Shown here: positions 19,601-48,300 of the stretch, one piece after another | Layout: each line of letters begins with the position of its first letter | Numbering within the stretch: position 1 is the stretch's first letter | NCBI RefSeq assembly: GCF_026151205.1 | Contig: NC_087074.1 | Coordinates: forward strand, 11,441,226-11,505,225 | Length of the DNA: 64,000 bases | From: Bolinopsis microptera | Taxonomy: Eukaryota > Ctenophora > Tentaculata > Lobata > Bolinopsidae | Direction: 5' to 3' | Position numbers and translations under genes: made by a program | Notes under the pieces: model-generated | What the model was told of the DNA's origin: nothing | Seen by the model: only the letters and a program-made list of their open reading frames with translations | Databases searched by the model: none

Positions 19601-21378
19601 AGAAAGTTTCAAGAAAATCGTATCGTTGGATCTCCAGATATATGCCTTGGAACCACTGCAAACCACCGAATTGGAGATATTTCTTGTGATATCTCAAATT
19701 TAGCACATAGAAACTCGCTAGAACTTACACAGATTATCCAAGCGATAAAGAAAAAACATGAAACCAATAACAGTGGTCCTATAACTAAAGTTATCTTCCT
19801 AAAGCAGTACCTCGTTGTACATGTCTATCAGAGGGAGGGTCGTTCAACTTGCTGAGGAGCTCTACGATATCAACAGAGAGGTCTGATCCAGGCCCCAGTA
19901 TCAGAGACAACTGTTTCAACATGTCAATACCGTCCTCACCCAGCAGGGACCTTGCCATGTCGTACATACTTCTCTCTCCGTCTCTCTGAGAGGTAATGGT
20001 GAGGAGGCAGGCTTGTTTTGATGATAGTTTGACCGTTTTAAGAAATGTATTCACGACTGAGAGGGAAAATCACGGGCTAAATTGTAATTTGCAATAAGAT
20101 CGTAATAAGTCCGGAAAATGTTATGAATTAGAGATGAGGTGATGTTACCTGTTCAGTGAGTCTGTGAAGGAGGTCGAGGAGAAGAGAAGAACACGTGTCA
20201 TGTTCCTGAGTTACAGAGGGATCTCCACAGAGCCGACCTAGAACCACCCTGTACTCTCCACCCTGGATACTTACCCGCACTGCTTCCTGACCTGAATCAA
20301 CGGCATTAGCGACTTATATTTAGAATATGGAGGGTCATCAATTACTCCACCGCTCACACTTGAGGGTCAACAATTACTCCATCACTCACACTTGAGGGTC
20401 AACAATTACTCCATCACTCACACTTGAGGGTCAACAATTACTTCACCACTCACACTTGAGGGTCAACAAGAAATATTCTTAACAGGTATTGAAACTATCG
20501 AGAAAAACATGGTCTTATTCCGAGATAAAGTGAGCAGCTAACCAAGATGATGATCGACTAGAGTCCAGATGGTTCTGAGCCTGAGAGTGATGGTAGTGTA
20601 GGAACCCTGGTTAAGGTTGGCTAGCAGGGTCTGTGCCATTGTTTGGAGCATGTCAGTCGGAGGGACACTGTTTACCAACATCTGGGAGATACCTGTACAA
20701 ATATGAAGTTAAAGGACTTGAAATACATTTAAAAATACGAACTGTTATGTAAGTTCGGTTTGAGTCAGAAAATTGATGGTTCCCGCCAAATGTCATTTAC
20801 CAATGAGCTTCCGCCAATGGCATATCAAAGCCCAGAATCATTGTCACTCATCACGATTCAGAATTCATCTTATCACCAATATTGAATATTTAGATCTATA
20901 TTTTCTGTATCTTTAAATTTTGGAGTAACGCTGAATCTAACCAGGCTCAGCGGGGTTGAAGTCTAACATTGAGACGAAAGGATCGCACAGCCCAAACAAA
21001 CATATCAGTGCGGGCTGAGACAATCCAGCAGAGTCACATGTAGTTCCTTCTAGAATCTTCTCGAACACTTCTTTGTTGCATATCAGGTAGTCCATTATCG
21101 CAGCTGGGAGTTAGTTTGTTTAGAAGGGTGGAGTTGAAGTGAATCCTATCAAAAGTCTAAGCAAAGTGTAACATTTTGCAAAAATTCAAAACACACGATT
21201 TAAATTTCAAGTTTAATCCACAATGAAACCAACCTTTACTAGATCCCACATAGGAGAGATATGAGATGAACTGTAGCACGGAAGGGGTTTCATTGAAGGC
21301 TGTGAAAAGAAGCTCCACTATTTCTTCTGAGAAATAATTGCTCAAGTCACAGATCTGTCCAAGGAATCGGCGCACCAC
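16642..21378 (-). CDS. VIRMA: VIRMA exon block 3 (11 exons, C-terminus)
   Basis: Exons in order: 21234-21378, 20942-21103, 20543-20692, 20149-20291, 19811-19985, 19289-19416, 18838-19015, 18444-18534, 18186-18288, 17015-17209, 16642-16812 (stop 16642-16644). Recognisable pieces are KEKKEQRVAGLGEGEHVNAR, the signature RPPSMHVDDF, and a final Gly/Arg/Asn-rich tail with an eight-Asn run encoded by AAC repeats. Low-complexity RGG-like tails are typical of the virilizer C-terminus. The acceptor of exon 17015-17209 is formed by the edge of a 14-copy minisatellite. The donor of exon 18186-18288 is duplicated 44 bp downstream. Confidence 0.92.
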
Positions 21379-24300: not shown

Positions 24301-27300
24301 GGCAGGTTGTTGCACCTTAGCACCTAATATCCAGTTGGCAGGTTGTTGAACCTCAGCACCTAATATCCAGGTGGCAGGTTGTTGCACCTTAGCACCTAAT
24401 ATACAGGTGGCAGGTAGTTGCACCTCGGCACCGAATTTGTGTCCTAGCCGTACATGGTTATAGCTGCTTCCCTGAAAATCTTCTCTTACATATTTTTGTG
24501 TGAAAATCATTACTTTCTGCAATGACAATATCAATTTTCTAAGAACATTAACAACATATTTACCATACTATTTACCATACTAGTTAGTGTTATAATATGT
24601 AACATACTAGTTAGTGTTGACTAGAAGTCTGGCAAAGCTTCACATGTGAGTAGCACAAGTTTTTTTGTAATTCTGTGTACTTTTGTTCTCAAGTAGTTTC
24701 AAGTTGGATATTAAACTGTTTACTGCTGGATATATAGCATTAGCATTTATTAATTCATTCAGAAGATTAAAACTTGGTAAATGTTAATTGTTAAGTCGCA
24801 AGTGTGGGTCCTCAGTTAACTTTAGCTGATGAAAATATGACGACATGAGAAATGCAGCCACATTTCTTGTTAAAAAACTGTGAAAAATATTACTCTACAC
24901 GTACAACAGCTTGATGTATTCGCTTTTGATTATTGCCTGTTTTATTATAGTGACGGAGTTTATGAGTTTATGTTAATCCGGATTCCGGAGTTCACTTTCG
25001 ATGATCTACATATTATTATTGTAACTAATAATTTGAGGTTCACCTATGGGCTATGACGCAACACTGAAGATATCATGAACTGTAATTAATGCCTGAACAA
25101 TTTACAACAACTCGTTTTGTCTGATTGTATTGGGAATCATTATATTCTCAGCATGAACAGTAAACACGCTGTAATTACATCGCATCAGGAGACAGTTTAA
25201 ACCTTATCATTATATTGAATATAAACAAGATAAAACCACAAAACGAGTAAGCAGCTTAATATCTCCAGACTGTTCCATTGTGACTTTGATTGAGGAACAA
25301 TACTTGTATATCTTTGGCTTTGTTCCAACTGTACCGGAGTACATCAGCTTCAGTAAAGGGTAAATTACCCCGTATGTATCATGGCTGCATGGTTTGATAC
25401 TATTCATTGGTTATCTTGCTTTTGGTTACATCATATCTTTACCCGTTGATAACATCACGATTCCCGCCATCTTACAAGAAGTGCCTCATTTCTCATAGTT
25501 GGTGTCCCTCTACATGTCCCACCAGTTACCCTTGTAGTGAGATAAGTGCTCCCTGATGATGACACTTGTAACACTTACACTGGTGTTGGGTCTACCAGTC
25601 CTGCTAGTCTCCCTCTGTAACAACGGAGAGTATGAACACACCAACTCCACCACACACACCACCACCTGTAGAACCTGCTCACCGGACAGTGCTACCTCAG
25701 AGTGTTCTAGATCTTTTTTACCCTTTTTACCGGTGGTCACAACTCCTAGTAACTCTGTTACAACGTTAAAAACAGAAGAGCACATTTTAAAAGATAACCC
25801 CATACCAGCAGAGAATATAACACAGAATCATGTTGTAATAGTGGAGCCAACAACAACAGCTGATATTAACGCAGTGGATCTGACAGCAGTGGAGCAAGAT
25901 GTACCTGAGCCTTTAACAGCTGAGCCAAATACAGTATTAAAGCCCTTAACGACTAAGCCAAATACAGTATTACAGCCCTTAACGACTAAGCCAAATACAT
26001 TATTGAAGCCCTTAACAGCTGAGCCAAATACAGTATTAAAGCCCTTAACAGCTGAGCCAAATACAGTATTACAGCCCTTAACGACTAAGCTCCCAACATC
26101 AAATGATACAACGAAGCAGGCCGAAGAAAAAATTGCCAAAAACCAACAAAACAAAACTACAGATCATGAGAATCCAGCGACGCAGCCAAAATCTACAGTT
26201 TGGATATGGTCTATTGCAATAACCATGTTATTACTAATAGTAGCGGGGATTGTTGGTTACACGGTCAGGAAAAGATATAGGGTGGGAGACAGCATTGAGT
26301 ATGTGACACTACTTGATGTCAAATCCGGTGAATACGTGTGAACACTTTAACTAAATATATGCAGTATGACGTCATACGTGTGAACAGTTTAACTAAATTT
26401 ATGCAGTATGACGTCATAAAAAGTTAAAGCCTTCATTTATCACGGAATCTGAATAACTGTACATTTTTTGTTTACCTAAAATCCGCGGGGGTTTACTATA
26501 CGTTTAGTGCAAGTTGACCTTCTTTTCTCATAATTTTACAACCAATAAAATGTGTAATGTTATTTTATCAAATGAATGACACTCGGAAATGACCAGTAAT
26601 ATTTTAAATGTCTGTTTTTCTGAAACAAAGGAGTTGGTATTTCTAGTCTTGATTGTTGGTTTGATTAATATTATTGATATCATATAAAAGCAGATTTAAA
26701 GTACAAATAACATCATGTTTAGCATTTAACTGAATAAAAATAATAAATCTGTCAAATTGACAGAGACCACGTTAACTGATATGCTGATTATAAAGTACAT
26801 TAATTATTCGTACCGTAACATGATACTTACATACTGCCTGTCTTGTACACATCTTAAAACAAAAGATTAACCAAACAATTAATTTAAAAGAAGACTAACC
26901 TATTAACACCCAAACTTGTAATTGTCTCTGTTTTCCAATTTTTAGTCTCACAAGAAACGTCAACTTTACAAAATATACTATCAAGACATTTTAATTGTAC
27001 AGGGGTTTCAGGAGACAGATATAACATTATACAGGGGTTTAAGGAGACAGATATAACATTATACAGGGGTTTAAGGAGACAGATATAACATTATACAGGG
27101 GTTTAAGGAGACAGATATAACATTATACAGGGGTTTAAGGAGACAGATATAACATTATACAGGGGTTTAAGGAGACAGATATAACATTATACAGGGAGAC
27201 AGACATAACATTATACAGGGGTTTAAGGATACAGATATAACATTATACAGCTATTATTTGAACAGTAACACAACATGTCCGGTATTATGACGCACTGGAT

Positions 27301-30300
27301 AGTTCAAGATATTAACAGCAAGATTACCCTTGCTAGGGCCTAGTATTGTTGTTTATCCATTCTTTGATACTTTTTATCCAGTTCTGTCGCTCTAATTGAA
27401 CTGCATGTAGTATCCAAACTGTGTATTTATGCTGTGTGTATCTAATCATCATCATTTATATTGCATCTAAAACTTAAAATTGAAGTTTTGCAGGCTCCAT
27501 AAATCATATCCTACATTCAAAGAAACCATGATTAACTTAGCGCTCAAATTCAGTATACTTAATTAAATTGAAGTATGTTAATTAAAAACTACCTTTGGAT
27601 GAAACGCATCGCATCATCATAAATTACTAAATTACTTGGTCCGCCCGGTAATTACAGATTACAAAGGGAGGATGCATATTAAAAAAGGAACCACGGAGCC
27701 CAACTCAATATTACAATACTGCAGCTGTCTGCAGCTTTGAGAGCTCCCTGAGGTTCCCTGGGTCTTGTGAATAATCATTAACCTGGTTAGTAAGCGGTGA
27801 TAATATATTGCTGTGGTCCTTTACCTCCCCCCCCCCCCCCCCACCACCTTCAGACTGCTTGACGATCTAAATGTTGAAAAGACAAGAAAAAAGGAGTTAT
27901 ATAGATGTAGCAGCTATTGTCAGATTGAAACCTGCCGTTTATTATTTAACAATCCAGAAGGTAGATGAGTTATGAGGGTCCGGGTGAGAGTCTTCTTATT
28001 CTTAGTGAGTTAGTGGCTGGCTGGAGGCATGAGCAGATATTTACGATATTGTGATTGGATGGATCGTAAAATCACGTGGTAAGGGTCTCGGCACAATTAG
28101 CTAGCACAGTTCCTGTCCTCATTTCTCATTACCTCAGTTCAGTTAAACCGCTCAATATTTCGGTTGTTGTAAAGTTAAGTAAGTTTAAAGACACGAAACC
28201 TCGATATAGGTTTCAAGAGAAGACAGCAGAGATCGTTAGAGAATGGCGAGTTCCTGCTTTCTTATCTTCATTGCTGTGGAGATAATCAGAACTACTGCTG
28301 CTAATGAAGGTATTCTTTAATGATATTTTAGTGGGCTACATTATTACAATTCTGAGAATTAACTATGGGCGACATTCTTAAATTCATGATAACATCAATC
28401 GTTGCTCAGTAGTCATGAGTTAAACATACAAATAACAGGTTGGTTACCAGTCAAACGTGAGGTGGAAATAGAGTGGGATCTTGAGAACTTCTTATGAAGT
28501 CAGATAACAAAAAGTGACCCTAGAGTTTAGACTTATAGATATTATAGTGATAATGCAGTGCAGAGGCACATATTAGGTGCGGTAAAAAAATCGAAATTAT
28601 GCGGTACCGCACCCGACTATAAAGGTAAAATGTGCGGTAAGGTGCGGTAAATTTTTACCAATTATGCGGCAAATGTGCGACGATTTTTCGAAATTTGTGC
28701 GGGAATTGTGCGGTTTTCTTTTGCATTTTCTGAAGGACTTTGGAAATTCTAAACGTGTAACCGCCGCTCTTATCAAAAATAGGTCTGTTTATGTGTTACT
28801 GAGGGTGTAGTTCTTTACTAAGACCATGATTGAACCTATATTGAGATTCAGTTGTCTGAGAACAGTGACTTGATCTGGTAGAGATCAGGAGACAGTTATT
28901 TGAAGACGCCTCTTGATAGAGTCGATCAGATCCGATGCCTGATCGCAAATATCAAATATGTGACACGCTTGTTGGCATTGATCGTCAGTACTTGTAAACC
29001 ATTTGATCCAAGATCCATTAAGCCCACTATAAAGCCAACGCTACAACGATAAAAAGGGCTGCAGGTATGATCGAAGTACGGTAACGACGAGGGTTCCATA
29101 ACGCCTGGGTCACGGTCCCGAAAGGGCCTGGGTCATGGTCCCGAAAGGGCCTGGTCACGTGGTAACCGGGTCACGTGCCTAGGCATGAGTTCCAAAGGGC
29201 CTGGGTCACGGTCCCGAAAGGGCCTGGGTCAGGGTCCCGAAAGGGCCTGGGTCACGTGGTAACTGGGTCACGTGGCCTAGGTATGAGTTCCAAAAGGGCC
29301 TGGTCACGGTCCCGAAAGGCCTGGTCAGGGTCCCGAAAGGGCCTGGGTCACGTGGTAAACCGTCATTCGGTGTTGTAAAGTTAGTAACGTTAGCCTATAA
29401 TGCAGTGAAAAAAAAACTTTGTATCTTATATCAACTAAATTTGCACAGTTCCGAAATAGTAACGGTGATTACAAAATATGTTCGCACTAAATAGTCTAGT
29501 TGTTTATAAAAAAAGACTTTTGAATTATTGATAATGATAAATTTATGAACTTGTGATATCTTAGAAGTTGAGTGGGAAATCGTACTTTTCTTTGCAAAGA
29601 TTTCCGATGCATAAAATTTCCTAATTTATATTTAAAACATAAAATTGATAATTTTGTTTTACCTAATTATTCAGGTGTTTCGCGGATCAATTGACACAGC
29701 ATTTTCGTGACCTAATATTTTAAGATGTCCAATGTTTTGTATCATGATTCTTGTAAGTTGTACTTTATTTAATATTCATTCTTCTGATGATCCCGGTTTT
29801 CGTTATATAGAAGTCAAAAATTTAGTAACAATCACCGATTTATCTTTTCTTTACTCTAAACATTCTTTGTTGCCATTTGTTCGAATTCTTGATTCATTAT
29901 TCTGCATACCGCTGACCCGCATACCGAAAGTTGGTAAAATAATGAAATCAAATATGCAAATCGTAGAGCTACTTAATAACATTAATCCACAAATTCTTCG
30001 CTACTCATATACATGTAAATTCAAATTCTACGCCCAAACGTTTGTCATTTTGCAACAGACGTTTTTAAACCCAGCTGAAATAATGTATTAAAATTATACC
30101 AAATTTTAAAACTTAATTTTATTTTTCAAGCGTAGTAAAATCGCGCAAAGATAATTGCTAACTGGAGCTGTACCTACAGATCTTGGGTGGAGTCGATGAT
30201 CTAATGTATTCTCAATAGACTTTGGTATCACACGTGACCCACACCCACCAATGAAAACTGAGGATACCCCAATAAAACATTAGGAGTGATACAGTGATGA

Positions 30301-33300
30301 GCGTCAACTAAAATTGTTTCTTTCATGCGCTAAATATCCATTGTCAGATTTGCACGTGGTAGAACAAGTACAAAAGATACCTTGATTAAAGTGTACGACC
30401 TGCAAAGCAGAGTTAATCTACTGTGATCCTTTTGTCGCCTGTATTTTACTCTTGTCGTAAGGATAGGTAGGAGTCGATAATTTTAATCGTAATAATCTTT
30501 GATTCATTAGTTCAATCCAGGTCATTACTAATTTCAAAAAAGGTTCTAAAAATCTTTCTTTTTATACTGTAAAGCTGTAAACAGTGAAGGTCTTTTGTAT
30601 CAATCTCCTTTGAGGGGTTCGTTTTTAAAACTTTTATAAGAATTAAGCTACTTATCACAGCCACATATTCGAATACTGTAAAATATCTATATTATACCGT
30701 GCTTCTTTAATCTTCATACCGGGTACCTCGATAAACCGGGCATTGTCCCCAAAACTTTTAGTTAATTAGCTTGTGTTGTGCAAGAAACCGGGCATTGTCC
30801 CCAAAACTTTTAGTTAATTAGCTTGTGTTGTGCAAGAAATGTAATTTATCGTAGCTCATAATACCACACTTGGTGGTGATCTGAGTATTATATCGAGCTG
30901 TATTCCACCAGAATACGTGTGCATATATATAATTATATTAATTTCCGTGGCTGTGGTTGCAATGCGCCTAGTCTACTGGAATGATTCTTCGGAATTTCGC
31001 TGGATTGTACAACTTTCGTCTTGGTAGATTCCAAACACAAGGAAATTTTTCCTTTGGTTGGTAATATACTCAATGATGGAAGTATAGTGAATTGGCTATG
31101 CCCCGCTTACTAGTTTAGCTCTTTCTAGTCCCCTGCTATACGGCATGTAAACAGGGATTGGCTAGTTAGAGGCGGTCCGTGTAGGCCTTACACTGTGCTT
31201 TCAGCAATACTCATATATTATATATTATATAAGGCCCTAGTAATATACAAAACGCCTGACAGGTTATTTCTCCCGGGAGGCCCACTATATAGAGGTTTAA
31301 CTGTATTTAAAATAAGTGAAAAGTTAGGAAAGCATCTACGACATGATGCAGATACGATAATAAGTTCACGTTATGATGCTTGAAGTTTGAATTATGGTAT
31401 TGCCCATGATAAGATTATACAAACTAACTAACCTAAACACAATCAGATGGATGACTCAGTGCAATAGTCGGGGGAATGAAGACCTTGTATGTCTTCACGA
31501 AATTTCTAAGTCTCGTAATTTGGATCGAGGTTTCTCAATGTTTGCGTTCAACAGCAACTCCAAATACCCTACTTCAAGAGGCAAACGCAACAACATCTCC
31601 AAAGAACACACCAGAAATTTCAACAGCAACTCCAAGGATTCCACTTGAAGTGAACACGTCGATATCGACAGAAACTTCAACGGAGTCATCGTCGAAAAAG
31701 TCATCCTCCGATCATGTAACCACATTTTCCACTAGTACTTCATTCACTTCGGTCTCCCTGAAAACATCTGCAAATACTACAAAGATGACAAGAGACGTGA
31801 CCGAAGTCAGTGTGGTATCTTCGAACAGGACCTCTCTACCGGGCGTACAGTCGACAACATTCATAGGATCGACAGTGCAAGCCAATGGTAAATCAAAAAC
31901 AACAGCATATCTGAGGGTCCAGCCAGAGATTGTAACAACAACCCCAACAGCAACTCCAAGGATCCCACTCGAAGAGAAAACTACAGTATCTGAAAGGGTC
32001 CAGCCAGAGATTGTAACAACAACCCCAACAGCAACTCCAAGGATCCCACTCAAAGAGAAAACTACAGTATCTGAAAGGGTTCAGCCAGAGATTGTAACAA
32101 CAACCCCAACAGCAACTCCAAGGATCCCACTCGAAGAGAAAACTACAGTATCTGAAAGGGTCCAGCCAGTGATTGTAACAACAACCCCAACAGCAACTCC
32201 AAGGATCCCTCTCGAAGAGAAAACTACAGTATCTGAAAGGGTCCAGCCAGAGATTTTAACAACAACCCCAACAGAAACTCCAAGGATCCCACTCGAAGAG
32301 AAAACTACAGTATCTGAAAGGGTCCAGCCAGAGATAGTAATAGCAACTCCAACAGAAACTCCAAGGATCCCACTCGAAGAGAAAACTACAGTATCTGAAA
32401 GGGTCCAGTCAGAGATTATAACAACAACCCCAACATCTCAAAAATCCCCATCAGAAGTTAAGACATCAAAAGCGCTGATATCGACAGAAAGTTCAACGGA
32501 GTCATCGTCGAAAAAGTCATCCGATCATGTAACCACATTTTCCACTAGTACGTCATTCACTTCGGTCTCCCAGAAAACTTCTGCAAAAACCACAACTTCA
32601 AATTCCAAATTACCAATAAGATCTACTAAAAACTCTCCATCAACTTCATCAAAAAGACCCAGGACAACACCAAAGACGGTTGAAGATGTAACTGAAGGGA
32701 GCGTGCTATCAACGAACAAGACCTATCTACCAACTGTCCAACCAACAACGTTCATAGGATCGGCTGTGCAGGCCGATGAAAAATCAAGCACTCACCCGAA
32801 ATCAACAAAACATGCAACGTACAAAGGTTCATCGGATATAAAAGTTTCAGTTTCTGGAATGTCTATAGAGGAACCAAAAACATCATTCTTATCGATCGAG
32901 AAATCGAAAGAGAGCACCTCATCCGGTAGTGATCACAGTACCAAATTTTCCACTAGTACTTCATTTTCTCATGCCACTACATCAAATTCCAGAGTACCAA
33001 TAGGATCTACTAAAAACTCTCCATCAACTTCATCAAAAAGACCCACGACACCACCAAAGACGGTTGAAGATGTAACTGAAGCGAGCGTGCTATCAACGAA
33101 CAAGACCTATCTACCAACTGTGCAACCAACAACGTTCATAGGATGGGCTGTGCAAGCCGATAAAAAATCAAGCACACATGGGAAATTGCACAAAACATCA
33201 ACTCACAAAAGCATCAAGGAGAAAGAGTTTACAAATAAATCGGAAACGTCTACAGAGGAGACTAAAACATCTGAAAAATCGAGCGAAACATCTGAAACAG

Positions 33301-36300
33301 TTACTGAGAATAGATACACAACATCTGTGCAAACTGAAAGCCCAACCTTTGTCAATGATATTGACAACATCAAAGAGCAGCCCATGACGAAAGTTGTCTC
33401 CACAAACACATCCTTGACTCTGGAGACCAAGACAAAGCTTCCTACAACAAACGCACCCACGACAAAAGAATCCTCTACAAAGACTCCCACAAAAAAGGCG
33501 CCCACAACTGCGACCAAAACAAAGGTGCCAACAGATAAGCCGACAACAGAGAAGCCGACAACAAAGAAGCCGACAACAAAGAAATCCACAACAGAGAAAT
33601 CCAAAACAGAGAAGCCCACAACAGAGAAGCCCACGACAGAGAAGCCTACAACAGAGAAGATCACAATAGAGAAGACCAAACCAGAGAAGCCGACAACAAA
33701 AAAGCCGACAACAAAGAAATCCACAACAGAGATGTCCACAACAGAGAAGCCGACAACAAAGAAATCCACAACAGAGAAATCCAAAACAGAGAAGCCCACA
33801 ACAGAGAAGCCCACGACAGCGAAGCCGACAACAGAGAAGATCACAATAGAGAAGACCAAACCAGAGAAGCCGACTACAGAAAAGCCGACAACAAAGAAAT
33901 CTACAACAGAGAAATCCAAAACAGAGATGTCCACAACAGAGAAGCCGACAACAAAGAAATCCACAACAGAGAAATCCAAAACAGAGAAGCCCACAACAGA
34001 GAAGCGCAAGCCCACGTCAGTGAAGCCTACAACAGAGAAGATCACAATAGAGAAGACCAAACCAGAGAAGCCGACAACAGAAAAGCCGACAACAAAGAAA
34101 TCCACAACAGAGAAATCCAAAACAGAGATGTCCACATCAGAGAAGCCGACAACAAAGAAATCCACAACAGAGAAATCCAAAACAGAGAAGCCCACAACAG
34201 AGAAGCCGCCAACAAAGAAATCCACAACAGAGAAATCCAAAACAGAGAAGCCCACAACAGAGAAGCGCAAGCCCACGTCAGAGAAGACTACAACAGAGAA
34301 GATCACAATAGAGAAGACCAAACCAGAGAAGCCGACAACAGAAAAGCCGACAACAAAGAAATCCACAACAGAGAAATCCAAAACAGAGAAGCCCACAACA
34401 GAGAAGCGCAAGCCCACGTCAGTGAAGCCTACAACAGAGAAGATCAAAATAGAGAAGACCAAACCAGAGAAGCCGACAACAGAAAAGCCGACAACAAAGA
34501 AATCTACAACAGAGAAATCCAAAACAGAGAAGCCCACAACAGAGAAGCCCACGAAAGAGAAGCCTACAACAGAGAAGATCACAACAGAGAAGACCAAACC
34601 AGAGAAGCCGACAACAAAGAAGTCCACAACAGAGAAATCCAAAACAGAGACCACAACAGAGAAGCCGACAACAGAGAAGACAAAAACAATGAAGTCCACA
34701 ACAGAAAAGTCCACAACAGAGAAGCCCAAAACAGAGAAGGCTACAACAGCGAAGTTCACAACAGAGAAGTCAACAACAGAGAAGTCCACAACAGAGAAGC
34801 CTACAACAGAGAAGCCCAAAACAGAAAAGGCTACAACAGAGGAGTCAACAACTAAAAAGTCCAAAACAGACAAGCCCAAAACAGAAAAGCCAACGACAGG
34901 GAAGCCCACAACAGAGAAGATCACAACAGAGAAGAACAAAAAAGAGAAGCCGACAACAAAGAAATCCACAACAGAGAAATCCAAAACAGAGAAGCCCACA
35001 ACAGAGAAGCACAAAACAGAAAAGGCTACAACAGAGAAGTCCACAACGAAGAAGTCCACAACAGAGGGGTCAACAACAGAGAAGCCCAAAATAGAAAAGG
35101 CTACAACAGAAAAGCCAACGACAGAGAAGCCTACAACAGAGAAGATCATAACAGAGAAGGACAAAACAGAGAAGCCGACAGCAAAGAAATCCACAACAGA
35201 GAAATCCAAAACAGAAAAGCCCACAACAGAGAAGCCTACAACAGAGAAGATCACAATAGAGAAGACCAAACCAGAAAATCCGACAACAGAGAAGCCGACA
35301 ACAAAAAAATCCAAAACAGAGATATCCAAAACAGAGAAGCCCACAACAGAGAAGCCGATAACAAAGAAATCCACAACAGAGAAATCCAAAACAGAGAAGC
35401 CCACAACAGAGAAGCCCACGAGAGAGAAGCCTACAACAGAGAAGATCACAACAAAGAAGACCAAACCAGAGAAGCCGACAACAAAGAAGTCCACAACAGA
35501 GAAATCAAAAACAGAGAAGCCCACGACAGAGAAGCCTACAACAGAGAAGATCACAACAGAAAAGACCACAACAGAAAAGCCGACAACAGAGAAGACAAAA
35601 ACAATGAAGTCCATAATAAAGAAGTCCACAACAGAAAAGTCCACTACAGAGAAGCCCAAAACAGAGAAGGCTAGAACAGAGAAGTTCACAACAGAGAAGT
35701 CAAAAACAGAGAAATCCAAAACAGAGAAGCCCACAACAGAGAAGCCGACAACAAAGAAATCCACAACAGAGAAATCCAAAACAGAGAAGCCCGCGACAGA
35801 GAAGCCTACAACAGAGAAGACCAAACCGGAGAAGCCGACAACAGAGAAGCCGACAACAAAGAAATCCACAACAGAGAAATCCAAAACAGAGAAGCCGACA
35901 ACAGAGATGCCCACGACAGAGAAGCATACAACAGAGAAGATCACAACAGAGAAGACCACAACAGAGAAGCCGACAACAGAGAAGACAAAAACAAAGAATT
36001 CCACAACAAAGAAGTCCACAACAGAAAAGTCCACAACAGAGAAGCCTACAACAGAGAAGCCAACAACAGAAAAGTCCACAACGAAGAAGTCCACAACGAA
36101 GAAGTCAACAACAGAGAAGCTCGAAACAGAGAAACCAACAACAGAGAAGCCCAAAACAGAGAAGGCTACAACGAAAAAATCCAGAACAGAGAAGTCCAAA
36201 ACAGAGAAGGCTACAACAGAGAAGTCAACAACAAAAAAGTCCACGACAGAGAAGTCCACAACAAAGAAGCCCACAACAGAGAAGCCTACAACAGAGAAGA

Positions 36301-39300
36301 CCACAACAGAGAAGACAACAACAGAGAAGCCGACATCAGAGAAGCCTACAACAGAGAAGACCACAACAGAGAAGCCTACAACAGAGAAGCCTACAACAGA
36401 GAAACTAACAACAGAGAAGACCACAACAGAGAAGCCTACAACAGAGAAGCATACAACAGAGAAGCCTACAACAGAGAAACTAACAACAGAGAAGACCACA
36501 ACAGAGAGGTCCACAATAAATAAATCCTCAACAGGAAAGTCCACAATAAATAAGTCTGAAACAGAGAAGCCCACAGTAAAGAAGTACACCATAGAGAAGT
36601 CAACAATAAAGAATTCCACCACAGAGAAGCCCAAAACAGAGAAGCAGACAATCAATGACATCACCGAGCCAGAAGAGTCCAAAAATTCAACAGTGGCCCT
36701 GTCGAAATCGTCCGAATCATCAGGAGAAAATCCGAGCAATACTGCACTTCATTTTCTTCTTATCGTTATAGCTGTTGCTGGAACTGGTTCTCTCATATAC
36801 ATCGGCCTGATCGAGTCTGTTTCAAAAAGGCCAGCACCTTCAGCCCTAATGGTTGATCCAACAATTTCAAATGTCTAAATATCATAATATTAGATATCAA
36901 TCTCTCATCTGATAATTGTCATAATTATTCATAATTATACTCGACCAATTTTTAGATATTGAACAAAACCTGGTTTAAGGAAATAATAATTGTATATAAT
37001 TTATTCCATTTAAAGTTTGCTGACTTAACAATAATTGCACTACATAGAAATTTTAGGAGCATGTGTAATTTGTTCAAGAGTATAATAATTGAGTAATTGA
37101 TATTAATTGTAAATTACGGGAATATGTTGTTAGATATGCAAATAATATGAACATATCGTTAAATATGCGATTTGTAAATGGTAGTCGTGCCTCATTGACA
37201 ATATTACTATAGATGACAATATTATTGTGATGTTACAAGACTTATTGAATGAGAACTGGCAATGAAACTGTTTTAAAGAATGCCTGTATTTACATGACGA
37301 GCCATAACGACTGAAAGCTTTGCAAGTAAGAAAGATCCTTCGGCTTCCTGTAATTGGCTGGTTGCACTTGTGTAACATTGTGGCTGTTGGAATACACCGA
37401 AGTAAAATAAGTGTCTAGATTAAAAAAAAAAAAAAAAAGTACAAGTAGATCAAGTTTCAAGTTTTGTGAATGTTTTGCGACCTGTGTCTGACCAGTCTAC
37501 GATATGATTTTATATTTTTCTGAGACAATAATTTAATTTTAGCTTAGTAGTGATAGAATTGGGATGTGAATTTTTATTTAAGTTGTTAAATTTAATTCTA
37601 ATTCTAATTATTATTCAATCGTTTGAATGTCTGACATAAAATATCAATCACTCGATAATGTTTGTTAGTTTAATATTCTGTGAGCTTTTAATGATACCGG
37701 ACGAAATTACAATTTTAAGTCACTCAACACCTAACATAATATCTTTGGTATTTGGTAAAACTGTAAGGTAAAACCACTTTGAATTGCATTTACACGGATT
37801 GTCTCTAAATGTACTTTTTGAGTAGTTTGCCGTTGCAAATTATGATAAAACCTCTCTCATGATCAGCACTACAATCTCCGGCAGGGTCAGCTTTTAGTCT
37901 ACTTGAAATCGTGCATATTGTTATCAATAATTGTAGTCAGTCCCGTTATGAGACTCTCATCAATTCTCATCATATTTCTGGTGTTCTGTCAGGCTGAAAT
38001 GCTTATTAGACGTGGAGAACAAACCGTGAATCCAAAACATCCAACAAAGTCGCCCGCAAAAGAGGATCATAATACACCACCTCAGAAAATGAAGACTGAA
38101 GTGTTTGAACAACCAGACAGCTCGACCACAAAGCACGTGATAGAGCACGTGACAGAACACGTGATAGAACACGTGACAGAGAAAAATAGAAGAAACAGAG
38201 AAGAAGATAAGCTCTCTAATAAGAAGGGGTCCCCTGAGTTAAGCCTGCAGGAGAAAGTGCTGATATCAGTTCTCCTACTCCTCCTTTTAGTTGTTACAAG
38301 TCTATCCATCACATGGTCCTGGAACAAAGCTCAAACCTCACTCACTAATCCTGAGAGAGGACCCGAGGATTCAGATAATATCAATAATCTGTCTGCTTTC
38401 TCGACATTATCTAACTCTGTATTTGAGGTGGTAGAGCTTCAGGAACTACATCTTGAGGAGAGTGGAGAGAGATCTGTGAGAGAAGGTGGGGGAACATCAG
38501 CTTCACTATTCAACCCCGCCTCAAATTAGAAGCTGGCTACTGGCGGTGAATCACAGTACTACCAAAACAGTTTGTCCGAATTTTATTTTAACTTTCAACA
38601 CAATATATAATTTACATGTGATTACTCTAATTAACAACCAATAAACAGTTCTATTTTTAACTCCTTACAGAGGTAAGACTGATGAGAAACACTGGGCCAA
38701 CTCTGTTTGAACCTTGTATTTGAGTACCACTTAATTTGACCCTGTCTAACTGAAGAGTCTGTAAATACTCCGTCACCTCTCCACAGTACACCCAAACTAA
38801 CCATACACTTGCTCAGCGTCTAGTTTACAGTTTTAACTTTGCAATGCGTCCCTTAGCAGTAATACTCGTAGTGAGACTGTTATTATGTTCAGTGTGGTTT
38901 GTTACAGTCAGTGAATGTTTCCCACGTGGTTCAACGGCTCAACAGAAAGTTCAACAGGAGGTGTTGTCTGGAGAGGAGCAAGGAGGACCTGAGATGGAGA
39001 CTGTAGTCACGGAGACTGTAGTCACGGACACTGTAGTCACGGAGACTTCAACACCTGACAACGGAGTACAAGTCTTAACCACGGACAATACATCAGATCA
39101 TACAATATATCCAGGGACAGTGTCGGCTACTACAACATCTTTTTCGTTAAGGACTGATACTCCTCCAAGTAAACCAGTGATAACCGGTTCATCATCAACA
39201 ACAAATAGTTCCCCTTCCGAAGGGACAGTAGCCATCAGCCTGCTGCCATATACGTCAAGAGAATCAACATCTAAGGAGCTACCGGAAATTTCCACTGACG

Positions 39301-42300
39301 AAAAGACCTCCGTTTTGCCAAAATTAGAGCCTGCCTCAACAGAGCCAGTTGGATCCAAAGAGAGAACCCTAAGATTAACAGTGCCCACAACAGTACTGAT
39401 AGCATCTGCCTCCGCAGTTCTGCTAGGTGTGTTCGGCTACGCCAACTTCCGCTACTGGAGAAAGAGACGTCAGGAGATGAACTTTAACATCTCGTACGTG
39501 TCCCGGCCTTGAGGACATAAGGACGATTCTTTTAGAACTTAGAAATTAGATATCTAGTACTCACTACTCTGTATTAAACTTAAAGACAATTTGTAGTGAA
39601 ACATTGGGGAGGGTTGAATTTAGGATATTGTCTTTAATGATTGTGTTTTAAATAATCCAATACTGTGTTCGGCTATTGTGATTGCGAACAGTTAAACCTC
39701 TATTCATCGTGCTCAAAGATTTACCGGACCTAACCCACCTCTATTTATGTATTTATAAGTTATAGCCATCAATATTTCCGTCCCCGAGAAGCACGGTAAA
39801 TATAGATTTGTATGTTCAATTCACATTTTGATTTAAATTTGTATTGAATCGTGTGATTATCATTATAATATTCTTTCATTAATTGTAAGAAATTTGTCCC
39901 ATCAATATAACGATATAATGGTTTGGACGATTAAGATGGTCTGGTCAGTGGTCAATGTCCGCGTCAAAAAAGCGCAAAGTTCCTGCTTACTGTAAAAGTA
40001 TGTCTGATCCTCAAATTTTCACCCATCCGCTATTATACTAGATAGTAATATTTGTATCTTTTTATGCATAATATTAATTCTTCTTCTTTAACCGTGTACA
40101 GTTCGTACTAATTGTTACCCCCTGACTCAACCAGCAATTCACCAATTTTAAGTTTGAAATTTTTACCTCATCGGTTAACTGGTTAAGGGATGTAATGGGG
40201 TTTAAATTGTAAGGACTTCATTACGTAATGACGTATTGGGAGGGGGTAAGCTGACTGTACTAGAACGCAGTTTTCAAGTGCAGTCCCGTCCGAGTTACAG
40301 CTACAAACAGACGTACCCTGTCTAGATTCATCCACAAACCCTTTATTAGTAGTTCACAGTGCGGTGGTATCATCCACACAATTAAAGTACCCCAAATTGG
40401 TGCGAATCCTTTAGTTGAGTACCCCAAAGGTAGTCGTAGCTCGTTCCCGTCTATGTTTCAACCCAAGTTGGAACATTTCTCTTTTACTCGTTAAACTTGT
40501 TGAGCAATGCGGCTATTACCACTTATCTCGGGATTGCTACGCCTTGCAGTCTGGATTAAAGTACAGAGATGTGAGAATGTCCCGGACCAGGCTGCAAAAA
40601 CCACGTCTCCCTCTCCTTCTTCTTCAGACATTTTTACTAGTCCTAACGGTGTCCCAACCAAACTGCAAACTAGTGGAGGATACAACACACACCCTACATT
40701 ACAGAACAGCAGCAGTCCTCTCAGGAACATTACAGAGACCAGATCGGAGGAGTCAGCTTCAGAATCATCTCCCTCCAACACGAAGGAGTGGGGAACTGAA
40801 ACGCCTTCCTCCAAAGAGCCTATGCTGAACTGCAAGTTTGAATTATGCTTGGTACTGATGATCCTAGTCCTAGTAGTCGGAACTGTGATTACTGCTCTAG
40901 TGTACTGTGGACGGAGGAACAGACACCACACCATCCAACACACCGTGTATACATCTCCTGGTTCTGAACTTAACACTGGTTTGAAGAGTGGATCTTGTGC
41001 TCTGACACTGATGGACGATACTAACGTGTACGCTGATGCTGTAGATTTAGAAACTGAGGGCATTGCAAGGAGGGTAGCAAGTACGGACAACTCTGTTAGA
41101 CCAGAGAAACCTGCTAAACCTGCCAAACCTGTTAGATTAAACCATAACTATGTCAACATAAGCATACAGACTTGTTACACTAAACCATAACTATGTCAAC
41201 ATAAGCATCCAAACTTGTTACACTAAACCATAACTATGTCAACATTACCAGCTTACACAAGTGTTGAGAATTAGTGAAGGGTATAATATCTGGACTACAG
41301 CGAGATTGGACTGTTATTAATTATTATTTCAATACGAGGTTAGTATGATATGAATTGAGATGTTTATGAAAGTCAGTCGAAAAACCTGTTATTTCTTTAT
41401 ATATTATCAATTTCGATCTCTACCCATGAAACGGCTCATTTTTATTTGTTCTTGAATTATTAATGATTACTGTTGTATGTTTATAAATTAATTTACATAA
41501 ATTATCATAGTTAAGTGAAATGCTCGGTAAGTTCCATTGTCATGATTAAGATCAAAAAGTTGTCAAAAGTCAAAACAAATCGTGATTTACTATGAAAAAA
41601 CTGTTCGTATCATCTCCTAATTTGTTTCAGTCTAGCGCTTTGTTGGCAATGGACCCAACCTATTACAAATCATGATCTAGATATAAGCTGTAATTTACAT
41701 CATACACAGTGTATGTATTATATTATACTGATGATACAATTCTCTAGAAAGAGTAAGATGATAATAAGATAATAGAAGTAAAATTCCGGCGGCTACGATT
41801 AGTATTAGTCATGTTACGTAATTATTCTAAGAATTCTAACCTCGTGGTTTCATCCAAGTCACAAAGGTATAAAGTATCATAATCAGAACATGCAATGGAA
41901 CGGAATTATATCTTGAGAAGACAATGAAATTGTTTCTAGGCCGGACTCCATAACAAGACCCTTACACTCGTCATTGTGAGACTCCATGGTCTAACAGTAA
42001 TAAAGTGACACACCACTCTGCACTGTAACACAATACCACAACAATGAAACAGATTGATGAGTAGTACCTTCGTATCCGCTCAACACAAATCATCGGTATT
42101 TCAGTTTGACCAACCTTTCCCGGTACTGCACAAATCATTGGTATTTAAATTTACATAAAAAGCGTAGACATGTAATATTAGGTTGAGCAGCCGGTTATTT
42201 GTTGGATGATGCAGGCAGTTTTGTTAATATCGTTGTTTGTTACAGCCTCTATACAATCTCAAGACTGTGAACCTGGAGAGCACGAATACACCGACCCAGC

Positions 42301-45300
42301 TAACAACTCCACGTGCAAGGTCTGCCCTGATGGTTTTATCTCTGCGCACGACAAAAAGGACATTTGCCAGTGGGTTGTTAAGAAGAAGCGGACTTGTGAG
42401 GCCGGGGAATACAGAAGTTACAAATCCCACACGTGTAGCCCATGTCCAGAGGGGACGACTAGTAAAGCTGGAGCTGTCAAGATGCAGGAATGTAGGTCCG
42501 GTAATGTAACCGCTCCTCCGGGCCAACTAACTGACAGGGTAACAGAGAGAGCTCCTATAAACACGACCACGGCACACGAGGTGACTAGGCCACAGGTTCC
42601 AGTAACATTGCGCAGACCAGTACACAGACCAGTAACCAGGAAGCCAGTTGTACCCGAACAGTGGAGGCCTGGAATAGGACTGGTAGTGGCCCTGACTGTG
42701 GTTCTGGTGGCAGGAACTTCCTCTGCAGCTTTCATCTGCTGGCAGAGGGCATCTGAGAAGGCATCTGAGAACTTAATAGCGGCCAGACCGAGACCGAAAC
42801 AGTTTAGAGTAAGACTTTCAACCATTAATGCTTCCAACTGTTCTTCTGTTTTCAGTAGTGACGGTGATTTCCAACGTGGTAACGGAAGACCGGAGAGTTA
42901 TATTACTGCAGAGGAGCTCCAACGTGAGAGGACTGAAGCAGAGTATTTTGATAATGTGGGATCTTTTCAGGAGTCAGACTACGTCATCGCAGACTCAACC
43001 TTAGCAGGGTCCCAACCTGAACCACAACCCGGATATGTTAATAATTCCAGTAAAGTTGGACTCCATAAAGCTGAGTCCACAGCGACGCTGGACGATGCGT
43101 CTGAATACGTGTAGGCGACCCTTATTTCAGCTGGATTTATGGTGAATCTCTCATATCCGGAGTATGCTGAAACAGCTGTACAAAACAACAGTACACACGA
43201 GGACGGAGGAGATGCCGGAGGGAAATGAATACGTGGGCCCAACATCAGACAAAAGAGATGAAGACGGGTAACTTGGTTCTGGAGACGAGGACGATGTTTA
43301 CTCAGAGGGATCAGAGGGTTTATAAGAGAAAAGTGAGGAAGAGAGAGGAACGTCAGAATCTGAACAATGCGAAGGTTAGAGGGACCTGGATAATCAGTAC
43401 GTGAACATGTATACCATTAATTATTAGCTGAGCAAAATAGCGACTAATTATATTAAATAATGTGCTGTTCAAATAATGATTAAAGTTGTACCATGTTGGA
43501 AGACTGTGACCCGAACTATTTTATTTTTAATACGATTACTGATTTTTCACAGTAGCTCATAAAGTCATAAGACTTGATGAAACAGGTCTGAGAAACTGCT
43601 ATCTTATAATGCTGAGTGCTATAGCGACAACATTGTTATAGCAATAACATTGCTATAACAATCAGATGTTGCCTGCGCGGCGGGTAGCAACACTGTATTT
43701 GATGAGGGTAGGAGCTAGTTTAAATTTTACAAGAGATAATCTTCAATTGCAATAAAATATTGATCAGAATGTTTAAATTTCAATTTTGTAGCGAATACTC
43801 GAATATTACAATTTAAACACGAAATAACAAAAGCAATTTGAATCGTTGATCCGTGGATTCGTGATCTTTCATGTGCATTCTTTTTTGCTCACTTTTTTTT
43901 GCTCACTATTTAACAGTAAAGTTTAAAAGTAATTAAAAAAATATAAATACGAATTATTTCGTTGTTTGTGGCATAACTATTAATCAAAGGTTTTTTAACT
44001 ACATCAATAATTATTAATGGTATTGCATTAGTTTACGGCAGTTAATATTCTCTGTTTTTTACTACTTGTTCAAAGAGTGTTGGTGTCAACATAAATTTAA
44101 CCACTGTACCATTCGAATTAAAATAGAGAACTGGTAAAATAAGTCACCACGATAGATATCATGAATTGTAATTCTGTAACATTAAACCATTGTTTTTTAA
44201 TATGACATCAGCTGACATGGCCAATATTTTCTTAGAGTAGCTACAGGAGTAAAGGTTGCACCATAAATCATCAGTAACGCTGCAATTATACAAATGCCAC
44301 ACCAGTACACTTCTACACTACTCTCAAACGTTTTGATATTCTGATATTTTAATGCAATACTTGTCAGCTCTTCTAGTTTTCCTGCATCTAGCAGTCCCGA
44401 TAGAGTCCAGCTGCAAGCATGGAAAGTACGAGTATACGGACCCAGTGACCAACCAAATAACCTGCAAGATTTGTCCAGACGGCCAAATTTCAGGACACTC
44501 TAAGAAGCACACCTGCCAACTTATCCATGATAGATCAAGAAACTGTACGGCAGGATCATATGGCTTCAAAACCATGGGCTGTATCTCTTGTCCTGCTGGT
44601 AGAATGAGCCCTGCTGGAGCTGTTAAAGTTCAGGAATGCAAGAAAGCTGTTACAAACCAGACTGTAACGAATGAGGCTGCCACTCAGCTGCTGACCACAC
44701 CCGAGCGACAGGAAACATCATCAATAAGACCATCAGTTCATCCAACCATACCAAAGATTCCTACTACTTCTCCACCCGAGGGGACAACAGAGCCTTTAAA
44801 TCACATGACAACACCAAATATACCAACTAAACCTTTACCAAAGGAGCTTACATCTAACACAACAACCAAAGTAACCCAACCAAAGATACCGGCAACAAAG
44901 AAGCCAGTGTCAGCTGCGCCTCCAACAAAAGCACCCACTAAGAAAGGGCCCCCCGTAGGCCTAATAGTGAGCCTGCTGTTAGTGTTTCTAGTAGTTATGG
45001 GGTCAGCCGGCTACATCGTCTGGAGGGTCACTTCACATCGCAGACAGGGCGGAGGTCTTCCACTGATCGAGCCTAATGGGTTCACAAACCCCACTCTTGT
45101 AGACGACGAAACCCCAGTTTCTCAGGGATTTGGACTTCGCAGATATAAAAGACAGGACAGTAACTACGTTTGTACGGATGAGCTGAAGCTGGAGAGTGAA
45201 TATGTGGAGGCGTCACAGGTCAGGATATCTAGCCAATACGAGGTGCTGCAGCTGAAGGATGACGGAAATCAAGGGAATGCTTCCGGATCGAAATGCAGTG

Positions 45301-48300
45301 CTGTTGAGAATACTCCAGAGTCAGAGTATGTCCTTTCTGACCTAAAGAACACTCCAACAAAGCAATCTGAGTATGTAAATACCTATTCAGTTGGAGCTAA
45401 GCCAAAAGCTCAACCGGAATCCGAATACGTTGTTGCAAGCCCATTCCATGCAGGATCACAGCCAACAGAAAATAACCAAGAATCTGAATATGACGTCCCC
45501 AGAAATCTAAATAATATTACAACTCCAAGAGAGCACCCTCAGTACATGAACACAGTTGGATCCAAGCCTACAAAGTTAACTCAACCAGAATCTGAATACG
45601 TCGATGCCAATCCATTCCACACAGGACCACAACCTACAAAACCGGAGTACGTTAACACAGGTCTTGGTCTCACCCAACCAACTAACACGGATATGAAGGA
45701 AGAGTCCGAGTATGCTTACGCTAGTCAGGGTCAACTCAGATTCCTACGGAACCGTCCAGAACCCGCAAAAGCTTCAACAAGCAGGGAGCAGGGGAGCTGG
45801 GGTCAGGGGGCCATGCCTGAGGAGCAGGGGAGCTGGGGTCAGGGGGCCATGCCTGAGGGGAGCGAGTATGTGGAACCCACATTCCAGCAATCTATATACG
45901 AGAATGAGGAGGGAATTTACTCTCAGTGTCGGAATGACAGCTAGGGTGAGGGACACAGTCTAGTGTGAGGGACAATGACGTTATGATAGTGATATCTCTT
46001 ATTATCGACGCCTCGACGGGGTCAAAAGGAAAGGTCCGTGATTTTGATAATCAGTACTTTCATCTCATGGATCCGGACGCTCTCATCATATTATTGAAAA
46101 GAACAAATTTAACATTAAAGGCTGACAAGAGTTATCTAGTCCCCAGTCCCCCTTCACACTCCGGATATACAACTTAAAACTTACTGAAAGTTCTAAACTG
46201 ACCTGATTGACGTTAGTGCTGCAGCTGGGTAGAAGAGACTGAATGTGTAGCTGAAGGTCCCCCCAGAAAGGGAGCAGGTGAGCTGCCCATGTGTCTCTAT
46301 AGTGGAGCAGTACTTTCTCTTCTTCTGAACCTGGATTTGTTTTATCACTAATCGACCGGATACAGTGTGAGAACTCGTATTATTATGAATATTTGTGTAA
46401 CTGTGTTGTGTTTGATTTCTAGCTTTTAAGAGACTTTATTATATAACTTATTTTAATTGGTGTCGGTGATTTTAAACTTTGCATAAGTTTCAGGATACTG
46501 ATTATTGCAGTTTTGTAGGTTTTTTTTATATCAGTGATTTTAAACATGTGGTATAAGGTGATTTAGCAATTCGGTACTCTGTCGGTGGACAATTAATGCA
46601 GACGTTAAGGCACACTTGCCTTAAACATCCCTTTACTAAGCGAGCAAAAGTTTAAAGCTGTTACGTAGAAGAAACTGTTATTTAGCTAATTATTGATTTC
46701 TTCTTTGAAAGTAAATTGTCAATTTCTTGTTTTCTAGCATAACTGAAATACGAAACATACAGAAAACACGCGTTACCAAGTTCAATGTGAGAGATGATGG
46801 GCAGGGTTTGGGGGAGGAGCTCACAGAACATCATGAGAGAGCTGATAAACGCTTGCGGAGTAGAGGTGGAATAGTCCAGAACTTCCTGAACCAGCTTAGT
46901 CCAGCTGGTGTCACTTGAGAGACTTGATCCTGAGTGAGGTTCTCATTCTGAGCTAGTTATTGTTTAATTTTATTCAAATCAAAAATAGAACATAAATTAA
47001 CATCTTAAAGATCGGATAATTAGGCAAGTGAAGTTTCACTGCAGATTAACAAGGCGGATAATAGATAATTGCTAACGCCACAAATACCGAGTCTGAAATG
47101 CTGAACAATAATAATAACAATTAATTAACCATCATCTCACCAGTGGTAAAGGTAAGTAAAATGTTAGCGATGGTATGCTGCAGAGTGGACATGGTGTTAG
47201 CTATAGTAGCTGGAGGAGGAAGTGAGAAAAGGAGGGTGTGTAGTTGTAGCAGCGGCTTCACTATCGACATATCTGAAATAAATATGTCTACATTTCTCAA
47301 TTCTCATTCACCATCAGCTGCATTATAGGTATCTGAATAAACTTGTCTGCATTACTCATTCTTATTTCATTCCATGTTTGGGGTTTCGATTTGTACGTTT
47401 TAATTCTGATTTTTAAATTATGCAGCTTTATATAAATCTGGTAGTATATAGTAGTATAATACCACTATATACTATATTATATAGTATTATATAGTACTGC
47501 GCCTAATTAGTAATTTCGGATTTACTTATTTTATAATTATTGTTTCATGGATTTCTACTGCCATTAAATGCTGTTCTGATGAACTGTCCATCGAAAACAT
47601 GGAACCTTTTGAGCATTTAGCGCTAACCATCGCGTTTAGAATATCGCAAAAGAACCCAAAACTGGCCACGAAATAAGAACTTTAGAGCTTTAGGTCCTCA
47701 AATTAGGATCGTAAAATACATAATCAATATTAAACATTTTTGTCTCTTGACACCACTTTGAGAAACTAGTACAAAGAGTATTGCTAATACCAAAAATCCT
47801 TAAAACATCCTTTTTTTTCTTCACGGAACATATTAACTAAATTCCATAGTCCTACAAACGTTTCTTACCATAAATTATGTATACGAAGTTGATTGTTCCA
47901 CGATAAGACCGCTAAGTTTTAACAATAGAAACAATGTGGATTTATGAATTATCTGAAACTAACATCTATCACAAACAAAATACATGCAGACTCTATTTAA
48001 AATCATGGAAATTCAGATTTCAAGGATCTCATGTGCCCCTTAAACTTACCTTATATAAATTGGACAAATTATCTAATAATATGGACAATTTCACTAGAGC
48101 AATAGGGAGATTACCTTACAATGCACAAATTATAAGCCGTTCTAATTCTATATATAATCGTTATTTTCTGCGAGTCGACATTTACGACAAGTCAACCAAT
48201 TCATTAATTAATACTTGAATAATCAGAGACACTCAAAATTATGTTTATCTCATTCTGAACAGAAAGTGTTAATTATAAAGGTTATAATTAGTTTTAGCTT

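Follow-up and report, generated by a model that had tools for sequence, protein, structure and literature searches.

Seven nested single-exon reading frames for candidate type I surface proteins opposite a virilizer-like gene in Bolinopsis microptera

We analyzed a 64,000-nucleotide stretch of the genome of the ctenophore Bolinopsis microptera (assembly GCF_026151205.1, contig NC_087074.1, positions 11,441,226 to 11,505,225; the whole stretch is called the window here), in which seven plus-strand open reading frames (ORFs), each running from ATG to stop and encoding 193-1800 amino acids (aa), lie within one intron of a minus-strand gene resembling virilizer. We consider it probable, with real room for doubt, that these seven, here genes A to G in map order, form an old family of single-exon type I surface proteins that expanded in tandem, and that they arose and work as set out in the last section. 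The core of the family is formed by A, F and G, which share a Cys-rich extracellular module and a tail with tyrosine motifs, and the evidence that links the other four genes to this core is graded accordingly below.

Coding evidence for the seven reading frames

A sequence-only reading of this DNA had listed the same seven frames. All are complete, although the start it had given for C, at 37903, is a TTG and the ATG lies at 37948. An in-frame stop is found 1 to 33 codons 5' of each of the seven ATGs, and the single-exon status of A to G was read from the completeness of the ORFs.

We compared the frames with a null set of 100 order-2 and 100 order-5 Markov sequences, covering the same 21,063 bp on both strands with three tandem arrays masked. 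The order-2 sequences contained a mean of 0.01 ORFs of at least 190 aa (the longest 200 aa, in one sequence) and the order-5 sequences a mean of 0 (longest 173 aa), versus seven observed on the plus strand and three on the minus strand. The masked arrays hold much of B and minus-strand ORFs of 330 and 1152 aa, so the null does not apply to those three. B excepted, the ORFs are far beyond what chance provides.

Tandem arrays offered a second view of the frames. Among arrays with a period of 9 or more, taking the best row of each overlapping set and excluding three that straddle stop codons, the period was divisible by 3 in all six that lie fully within ORFs (A, B twice, C, D and G) and in 10 of the 32 outside ORFs in the window (Fisher p=0.003). 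The three excluded arrays cross the stops of A (26332-26418), E (41124-41245) and G (45937-45974) with periods of 42, 43 and 19, and the 43-bp copies of E repeat LNHNYVNI past the stop in shifted frames. Differences between neighboring 15-bp units of B were synonymous in 107 of 288 cases (0.37, expected 0.25), a count that took in 121 of 206 neighbor pairs, the remaining pairs being too divergent. The synonymous share was 5/14 among the 33-bp units of A (0.36 vs 0.29 expected) and 6/15 among the 81-bp units of B (0.40 vs 0.28); a 36-bp satellite, used as a control, gave 0.30-0.33 vs 0.27-0.28 in four of its six frames and lower values in the other two. An AATAAA or ATTAAA signal within 600 bp past the stop, found in six of the seven genes and not for E, is uninformative, as no shuffle control accompanies it.

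Kinship, Cys modules and cytoplasmic tails

All seven predicted proteins have a hydrophobic start and a hydrophobic segment toward the C-terminus. Signal peptides were read by hydrophobicity, the starts of B, E, F and G falling below the 19-residue threshold and being judged by eye, and the tails measure 20-310 aa. Two further traits ascribed to the whole set were narrower than stated: a Cys near the predicted signal-peptide end occurs in six of seven proteins (residue 21-25), the supposed C29 of C being C14 and inside the signal segment, and the Thr/Pro/Ser-rich stalk is clear in A, B, D, E and G (ectodomain Ser/Thr/Pro, or S/T/P, 36-48%) and weaker in C and F (26-27%).

B has the layout of a transmembrane mucin, with a long S/T/P-rich tandem-repeat ectodomain followed by a transmembrane segment (TM). 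The ectodomain is rich in T, K, P, S and E (S/T/P 48%) and consists of about 207 15-bp units and six 81-bp units, C22 is the single Cys among all 1800 residues, and no SEA-domain row was found in the Pfam search. We take its Pfam matches above cut-offs, Extensin_1 (1.5e-84) and HC2 (5e-21), to be driven by composition. C has a short ectodomain without Cys and an acidic tail without Tyr; a match to GAPT, a GRB2-binding adapter, fell below its cut-off (E=0.0035, 17.6 bits vs 21.1) and covered the TM stretch, and we drew nothing from it.

A, F and G are homologous, sharing the sequence of the signal peptide and first four-Cys module as well as EYV-type tails. In a BLAST comparison within a seven-protein database, F and G were 48% identical over signal peptide and modules (E=6e-25), with a match between their tails at E=0.006, and A matched G at E=1.4e-6; the TM regions of F and G were also alike (z 7.7). 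Over 76 codons of the F/G modules the proportions of differing synonymous and nonsynonymous sites (pS and pN) were 0.90 and 0.28, compared with 0.74 and 0.39 for A/G (51 codons) and 0.72 and 0.29 for A/F (32 codons), where the A/G and A/F counts span residues 1-56 and hence partly the signal peptide, and where all are simple codon counts without a significance test, at saturated synonymous sites. Such saturation means that the duplicates are old, and the low pN in the modules counts against decay as well as an arms race in the core of the module. A, F and G therefore look like old duplicates whose Cys modules were apparently kept by purifying selection.

The same BLAST comparison gave C, D and E no significant match within the seven, with E to A, F or G no better than 4.3; B was not judged there, its rows having been omitted on account of its repeats. 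Signal peptides provided other links. In a test with region-wise shuffles (21 pairs compared), none of 2000 shuffles reached the B-E score and A-G gave p=0.001. If Cys residues were placed uniformly, the joint chance of a lone Cys near the signal-peptide end in B (C22), D (C25) and E (C22) would be about 2e-5, the window having been picked after the data had been seen. When DNA from -200 to +80 around the starts was compared (200 shuffles, 21 pairs), the share of shuffles that reached the score was 0 for A-G, 0.005 for D-E, 0.015 for F-G and 0.02 for C-G; coding bases are included, so this is no test of shared promoters. The proposed cluster of related surface proteins thus stands firmly for A, F and G, a link of B to E through the signal peptide only is supported, D is attached weakly and C by layout. 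From the retained first Cys we infer that B, D and E are probably receptors that lack the module.

The BLAST result for C, D and E, together with the absence from C of a module, an N-terminal Cys and a tail Tyr, would also fit a convergent collection, in which A, F and G form one receptor family and the other four are mucin-like single-exon genes without kinship that originated in a permissive intron, or came to lie there, independently. The similarity of the B and E signal peptides, the equal Cys position in B, D and E, and the shared strand and order of the genes speak against such a collection, and we consider it unlikely. Relatives of the modules were sought in viral contigs (28 pattern matches) and genome contigs (59), with none confirmed in either; these scans used the Cys modules only, not B to E or the tails, and both collections are poor for animal genes.

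The module follows the pattern C-x11-16-C-x2-C-x8-15-C, with two copies in F and G and one in A. Against Pfam, the F ectodomain gave an ELAPOR1-type tumor necrosis factor receptor (TNFR) model (1.1e-5), Ephrin_rec_like (8.6e-5), NCD3G (the nine-Cys model of family-3 G-protein-coupled receptors; 1.2e-4) and TNFR_c6 (3.6e-4), all four below their curated cut-offs, and each of these models matched two of the three ectodomains (E up to 10). For TNFR_c6 the shortfall was 21.3 bits vs 29.4 (whole F 16.4; no row for whole G or A), and for Ephrin_rec_like (PF07699) it was narrow, at 22.7 bits vs 23.1 (whole F 19.4, whole G 9.7). When the three ectodomains were combined into a profile and searched against Protein Data Bank sequences, ELAPOR1 took rows 1-3 and TNFRSF11B the fourth, with E of 0.54 or more and none significant.

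A structure model of one module, built from the window's five modules, reached a predicted local distance difference test score (pLDDT) of 87; it replaced a weak two-module model (pLDDT 67) whose fold matches were not significant. The best 50 of its 218 Foldseek matches (E up to 10) were all to the TNFR superfamily, family-3 G-protein-coupled receptors (GPCRs) or ELAPOR1, and among the matches listed was one TNFR-superfamily protein from a poxvirus, CrmE. In these best 50 the Foldseek probability rose to 0.99, yet E was at least 0.11, presumably owing to the small size of the module; TNFR members among the top rows had probabilities up to 0.97 with E of at least 0.13, and Cys domains of family-3 GPCRs ranked equally. 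A typical TNFR repeat has six Cys, and shorter TNFR modules exist; the modules of A, F and G have four. Given that the modelled fold has TNFR-like neighbors and that the cut-offs were missed, we describe the module as having a TNFR-like fold and stop short of classing it with the TNF receptors.

The tails carry more of certain tyrosine motifs than their composition predicts. Across the seven tails EYV occurs 10 times vs 0.21 in shuffles, YV 15 times vs 2.6, and YxN six times vs 2.0 (p=0.01); the internal repetition of G raises these counts and contributes part of the EYV excess. The tails of A and F end in EYV, and those of B and C have no Tyr. YxxM showed no excess over shuffles, TRAF motifs numbered two of one type (both in F) vs 2.9 in shuffles with none of three other types, and the seven proteins had no Pfam row for a Death domain or a kinase domain; TRAF and ITIM (immunoreceptor tyrosine-based inhibitory motif) sites were counted by their consensus forms. 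In the E tail, SH3-type proline-lysine motifs match at three overlapping places (3 vs 0.5 in shuffles, p=0.02). YxN recruits GRB2-type SH2 domains and YxxP those of CRK type. As far as motifs can tell, the tails support a signaling role for A, F and G, and more weakly for E.

The virilizer host intron and its surroundings

The proposal that the cluster lies in a 24.8-kb intron of a minus-strand virilizer gene, which encodes an m6A (N6-methyladenosine)-writer subunit, was borne out by splice sites and by virilizer matches (Table 1). The coding regions of all seven genes fall inside this intron, on the strand opposite the host. Its donor reads CAG|GTCAGT at 46203|46202 and its acceptor TTTTCAG|GTG at 21379|21378. 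With a query translated and joined from 16 of 19 chosen minus-strand frames, exons at 47.1 and 46.7 kb matched the solved "Protein virilizer homolog" (E=2.7e-8), which we take to be the human protein. Exons joined from both sides of the intron gave a collinear, weak virilizer match (whole-query E=0.0077), in which the junction-spanning segment alone scored 3.4 bits, and a shorter joined-exon query returned only an unrelated chain and no virilizer among solved structures. We regard the nesting as well supported and the downstream exons as putative, resting on weak homology and splice signals. A search of open-licence literature for a gene nested in virilizer yielded no paper.

Table 1. Predicted genes of the cluster and features of the host intron (positions within the window)
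Feature	Position	Strand	Predicted content
Gene A	25556..26341	+	261 aa; signal peptide; one 4-Cys module (C21, C38, C41, C50); T/P-rich stalk containing 33-bp repeats; TM ~215-233; short tail bearing IEYVTLL and ending in GEYV
Gene B	31476..36878	+	1800 aa; signal peptide; TM ~1761-1779; 21-aa tail
Gene C	37948..38529	+	193 aa; signal segment with internal C14; TM ~104-122
Gene D	38844..39512	+	222 aa; signal peptide; C25 as the only ectodomain Cys; S/T/P-rich stalk; TM ~184-202 (three overlapping rows); short basic tail, terminal SYVSRP
Gene E	40507..41190	+	227 aa; signal peptide; C22; S/T/P-rich stalk; TM ~114-132; NYVNI and KPAKPAKP in the tail
Gene F	42206..43114	+	302 aa; signal peptide; two 4-Cys modules (C21-C54, C64-C96); stalk; TM ~159-177; tail with GYVNN, C-terminal SEYV
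Gene G	44352..45944	+	530 aa; signal peptide; two 4-Cys modules; stalk; TM ~202-220; 310-aa tail with 18 Tyr (six SEYV, four YxN, YDVP, YEVL)
Host intron, virilizer-like gene	21379..46202	-	24,824 bp; donor at 46202, acceptor at 21379
Virilizer exon, 5' border of host intron	46203..46349	-	upstream limit approximate
Virilizer exon, 3' border of host intron	21229..21378	-	downstream limit approximate
tRNA-Phe (GAA) gene	21427..21499	+	same intron and same strand as A to G

The region reads as animal, from virilizer, a ferric-reductase/NADPH-oxidase-like exon at 6876-7064 on the minus strand (Ferric_reduct E=4e-9) and a LINE-type (long interspersed nuclear element) reverse transcriptase frame at 53446-54966, also on the minus strand (RVT_1 E=2e-34). 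A further minus-strand frame at 1-1332 resembles a LINE-type endonuclease/reverse transcriptase by eye only (Pfam Exo_endo_phos 0.11). Another virilizer intron contains two long overlapping frames on the host's own strand (48269-51804), with a DNA_pol_A_exo1 (3'-5' exonuclease) match at 4e-8 in the longer and 0.05 in the shorter, and this is possibly a second intronless nested gene. The 36-bp satellite, about 25 copies at 23528-24436, is open on both strands, and its long ORFs are probably not genes. A dispersed repeat (92 columns, 87% identical) occurs at 37335-37425 in the host intron and at 52562-52651 between virilizer exons.

Alternatives, a proposed mechanism and known systems

Several observations weigh against an old family of seven surface-protein genes. 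Under the ORF null, C and a 190-aa minus-strand ORF lying antisense to E are equally unexpected, so that null alone is unable to separate a gene from its shadow. By a synonymous-codon score, a frame other than that of the ORF ranked higher in each of the seven genes, including F and G; codon choice therefore gives no support for coding, and we dropped the score. In the region-wise signal-peptide test F and G, which are true paralogs, reached only p=0.06, which marks that test as rough. For D the links are weak, with p between about 0.005 and 0.05 across 21 pairs, and C has no sequence link to the other six, its membership being a matter of layout and place. YxxP (4 vs 2.1 in shuffles) shows no excess in the tails, and neither do ITIM-like sites (2 vs 1.3). 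The missed Pfam cut-offs, the high Foldseek E and the qualifications given above for the EYV, Cys-placement and pS/pN counts belong on this side as well.

The sequence-only reading had suggested a co-evolving surface recognition or adhesion system, for example for allorecognition, immunity or epithelial surface sensing. In a rapidly co-evolving allorecognition or immune locus, ectodomains would diversify under selection and tails would report self or non-self. A tandem type I cluster with several tyrosine tails, widely varying ectodomain and tail lengths and single ITIM-like sites in A and G would suit such a locus. We found no direct support for this role: the Cys modules look conserved between paralogs, the ITIM-like count is close to its shuffled value, and whereas one kind of invertebrate allorecognition receptor has Ig-like ectodomains, no Ig-like domain is among the Pfam rows of the seven. 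We judge this quite improbable. A mobile or viral origin of the genes, whether as retrocopies or as the glycoprotein genes of a DNA virus that integrated here, draws something from their intronless state, from the LINE-type reverse transcriptase elsewhere in the window and from the mucin-like and TNFR-like proteins that viruses also have (CrmE among the fold matches), and is very improbable, since the seven have no significant viral Pfam match (weak rows only, e.g. Orf78 0.05, MCPVI 0.02), no long flanking repeats appeared when 21-47 kb was compared with the window (rows of B and of the 36-bp array left out), the viral-contig scan with the Cys modules confirmed no relative, and synonymous saturation indicates old duplicates.

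In the account we favor, tandem duplication on the strand opposite the host would have built up the family within the intron. B, D and E would descend from the same ancestor as A, F and G, having lost the Cys module, kept the first Cys beside the signal peptide and turned into mucin-like spacers or co-receptors; the place of C is uncertain. The membrane-distal modules of A, F and G would bind a ligand or one another, leading to receptor clustering, upon which a membrane-associated tyrosine kinase would phosphorylate EYV, YVN and YDVP sites in the tails and adaptors with SH2 domains of the GRB2 and CRK kinds would dock there. G could then serve as the main scaffold, A and F as shorter versions, E as a module-less docking partner and B as a long, glycocalyx-like rod. 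Judged by their tails, A, F and G probably rely on tyrosine phosphorylation and SH2 adaptors for signaling; the use of death domains or TRAF motifs, as in classical TNF receptors, is not apparent. A large, permissive intron is probably the reason for the position opposite the host, and host and cluster may be transcribed in a mutually exclusive way as a result.

A bolder version, which we put forward tentatively and think doubtful, is that the cluster represents a new animal receptor family: TNFR-like, without kinase or death domain, with EYV/YVN docking tails and mucin-like derivatives, encoded as a single-exon antisense unit in virilizer. The same doubt covers its corollary that the mucin-like derivatives keep the signal peptide and first Cys only, and transcription of the receptor cluster and of the host would possibly exclude each other. 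Nothing evidently on point for intronless TNFR-like clusters, or for TNFR with SH2 in early animals, emerged from the open-licence literature. If expressed, the genes would pair a TNFR-like exterior with tyrosine-phosphorylation docking inside, in place of the classical TNFR route, and would suggest how one receptor decays into mucin-like partners within a tandem array. They also provide a case, open to testing, in which many single-exon genes for surface proteins are nested opposite a single conserved host.

It had been stated that no described family has this set of features. The modules lie near a TNFR-like and ephrin-receptor-like fold group, below cut-offs, and nested clusters have already been described, so this holds in part only. 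With the TNF receptor superfamily, A, F and G share membrane-distal Cys-rich modules and a type I layout, and the modelled module fold may be similar; they differ in their four-Cys modules, in missing the TNFR_c6 cut-off, in their EYV/YxN-rich tails, and in showing no Death-domain match and no TRAF-motif excess. Ephrin_rec_like, ELAPOR1 and family-3 GPCR domains are the best Pfam and fold neighbors of the module, whereas A, F and G are short stand-alone receptors without a kinase, a GPCR or another large part. The seven likewise differ from ephrin receptor tyrosine kinases, having no kinase-domain row and tails of 20-310 aa. Among genes nested in NF1, EVI2A and EVI2B are S/T-rich type I membrane proteins with one coding exon, and we know of no TNFR-like module in the NF1-nested genes; Pfam holds an EVI2A model, which is not among the Pfam rows of the seven.

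One NF1 intron, given as intron 35 (PMC7692384) or intron 30 (PMC4394429), contains EVI2A, EVI2B and OMG in antisense, and EVI2B is the surface protein CD361 (PMC9287322). That system resembles ours in having several genes, some for surface proteins, opposite the host in one large intron, and differs in its three nested genes vs seven here and in an unrelated host. MOB2 harbors 13 nested genes, KRTAP5-1 to -6 among them (PMC4394429), and so likewise has several paralogs in one host gene; these encode keratin-associated proteins, not receptors, and KRTAP5-1 runs in the host direction, not antisense. LRRTM1-3 lie on the opposite strand in alpha-catenin introns (PMC3933685), and are thus transmembrane surface-protein genes in a large conserved intron, although with a leucine-rich repeat ectodomain and one gene per host. 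For Hormiphora, 2357 nested intronic genes in 1654 hosts have been reported (PMC8527503). The layout of the Bolinopsis cluster is therefore of a known kind; novelty may lie in how many genes it has, in the pairing of a TNFR-like module with EYV tails, and in the presence of module-less siblings.

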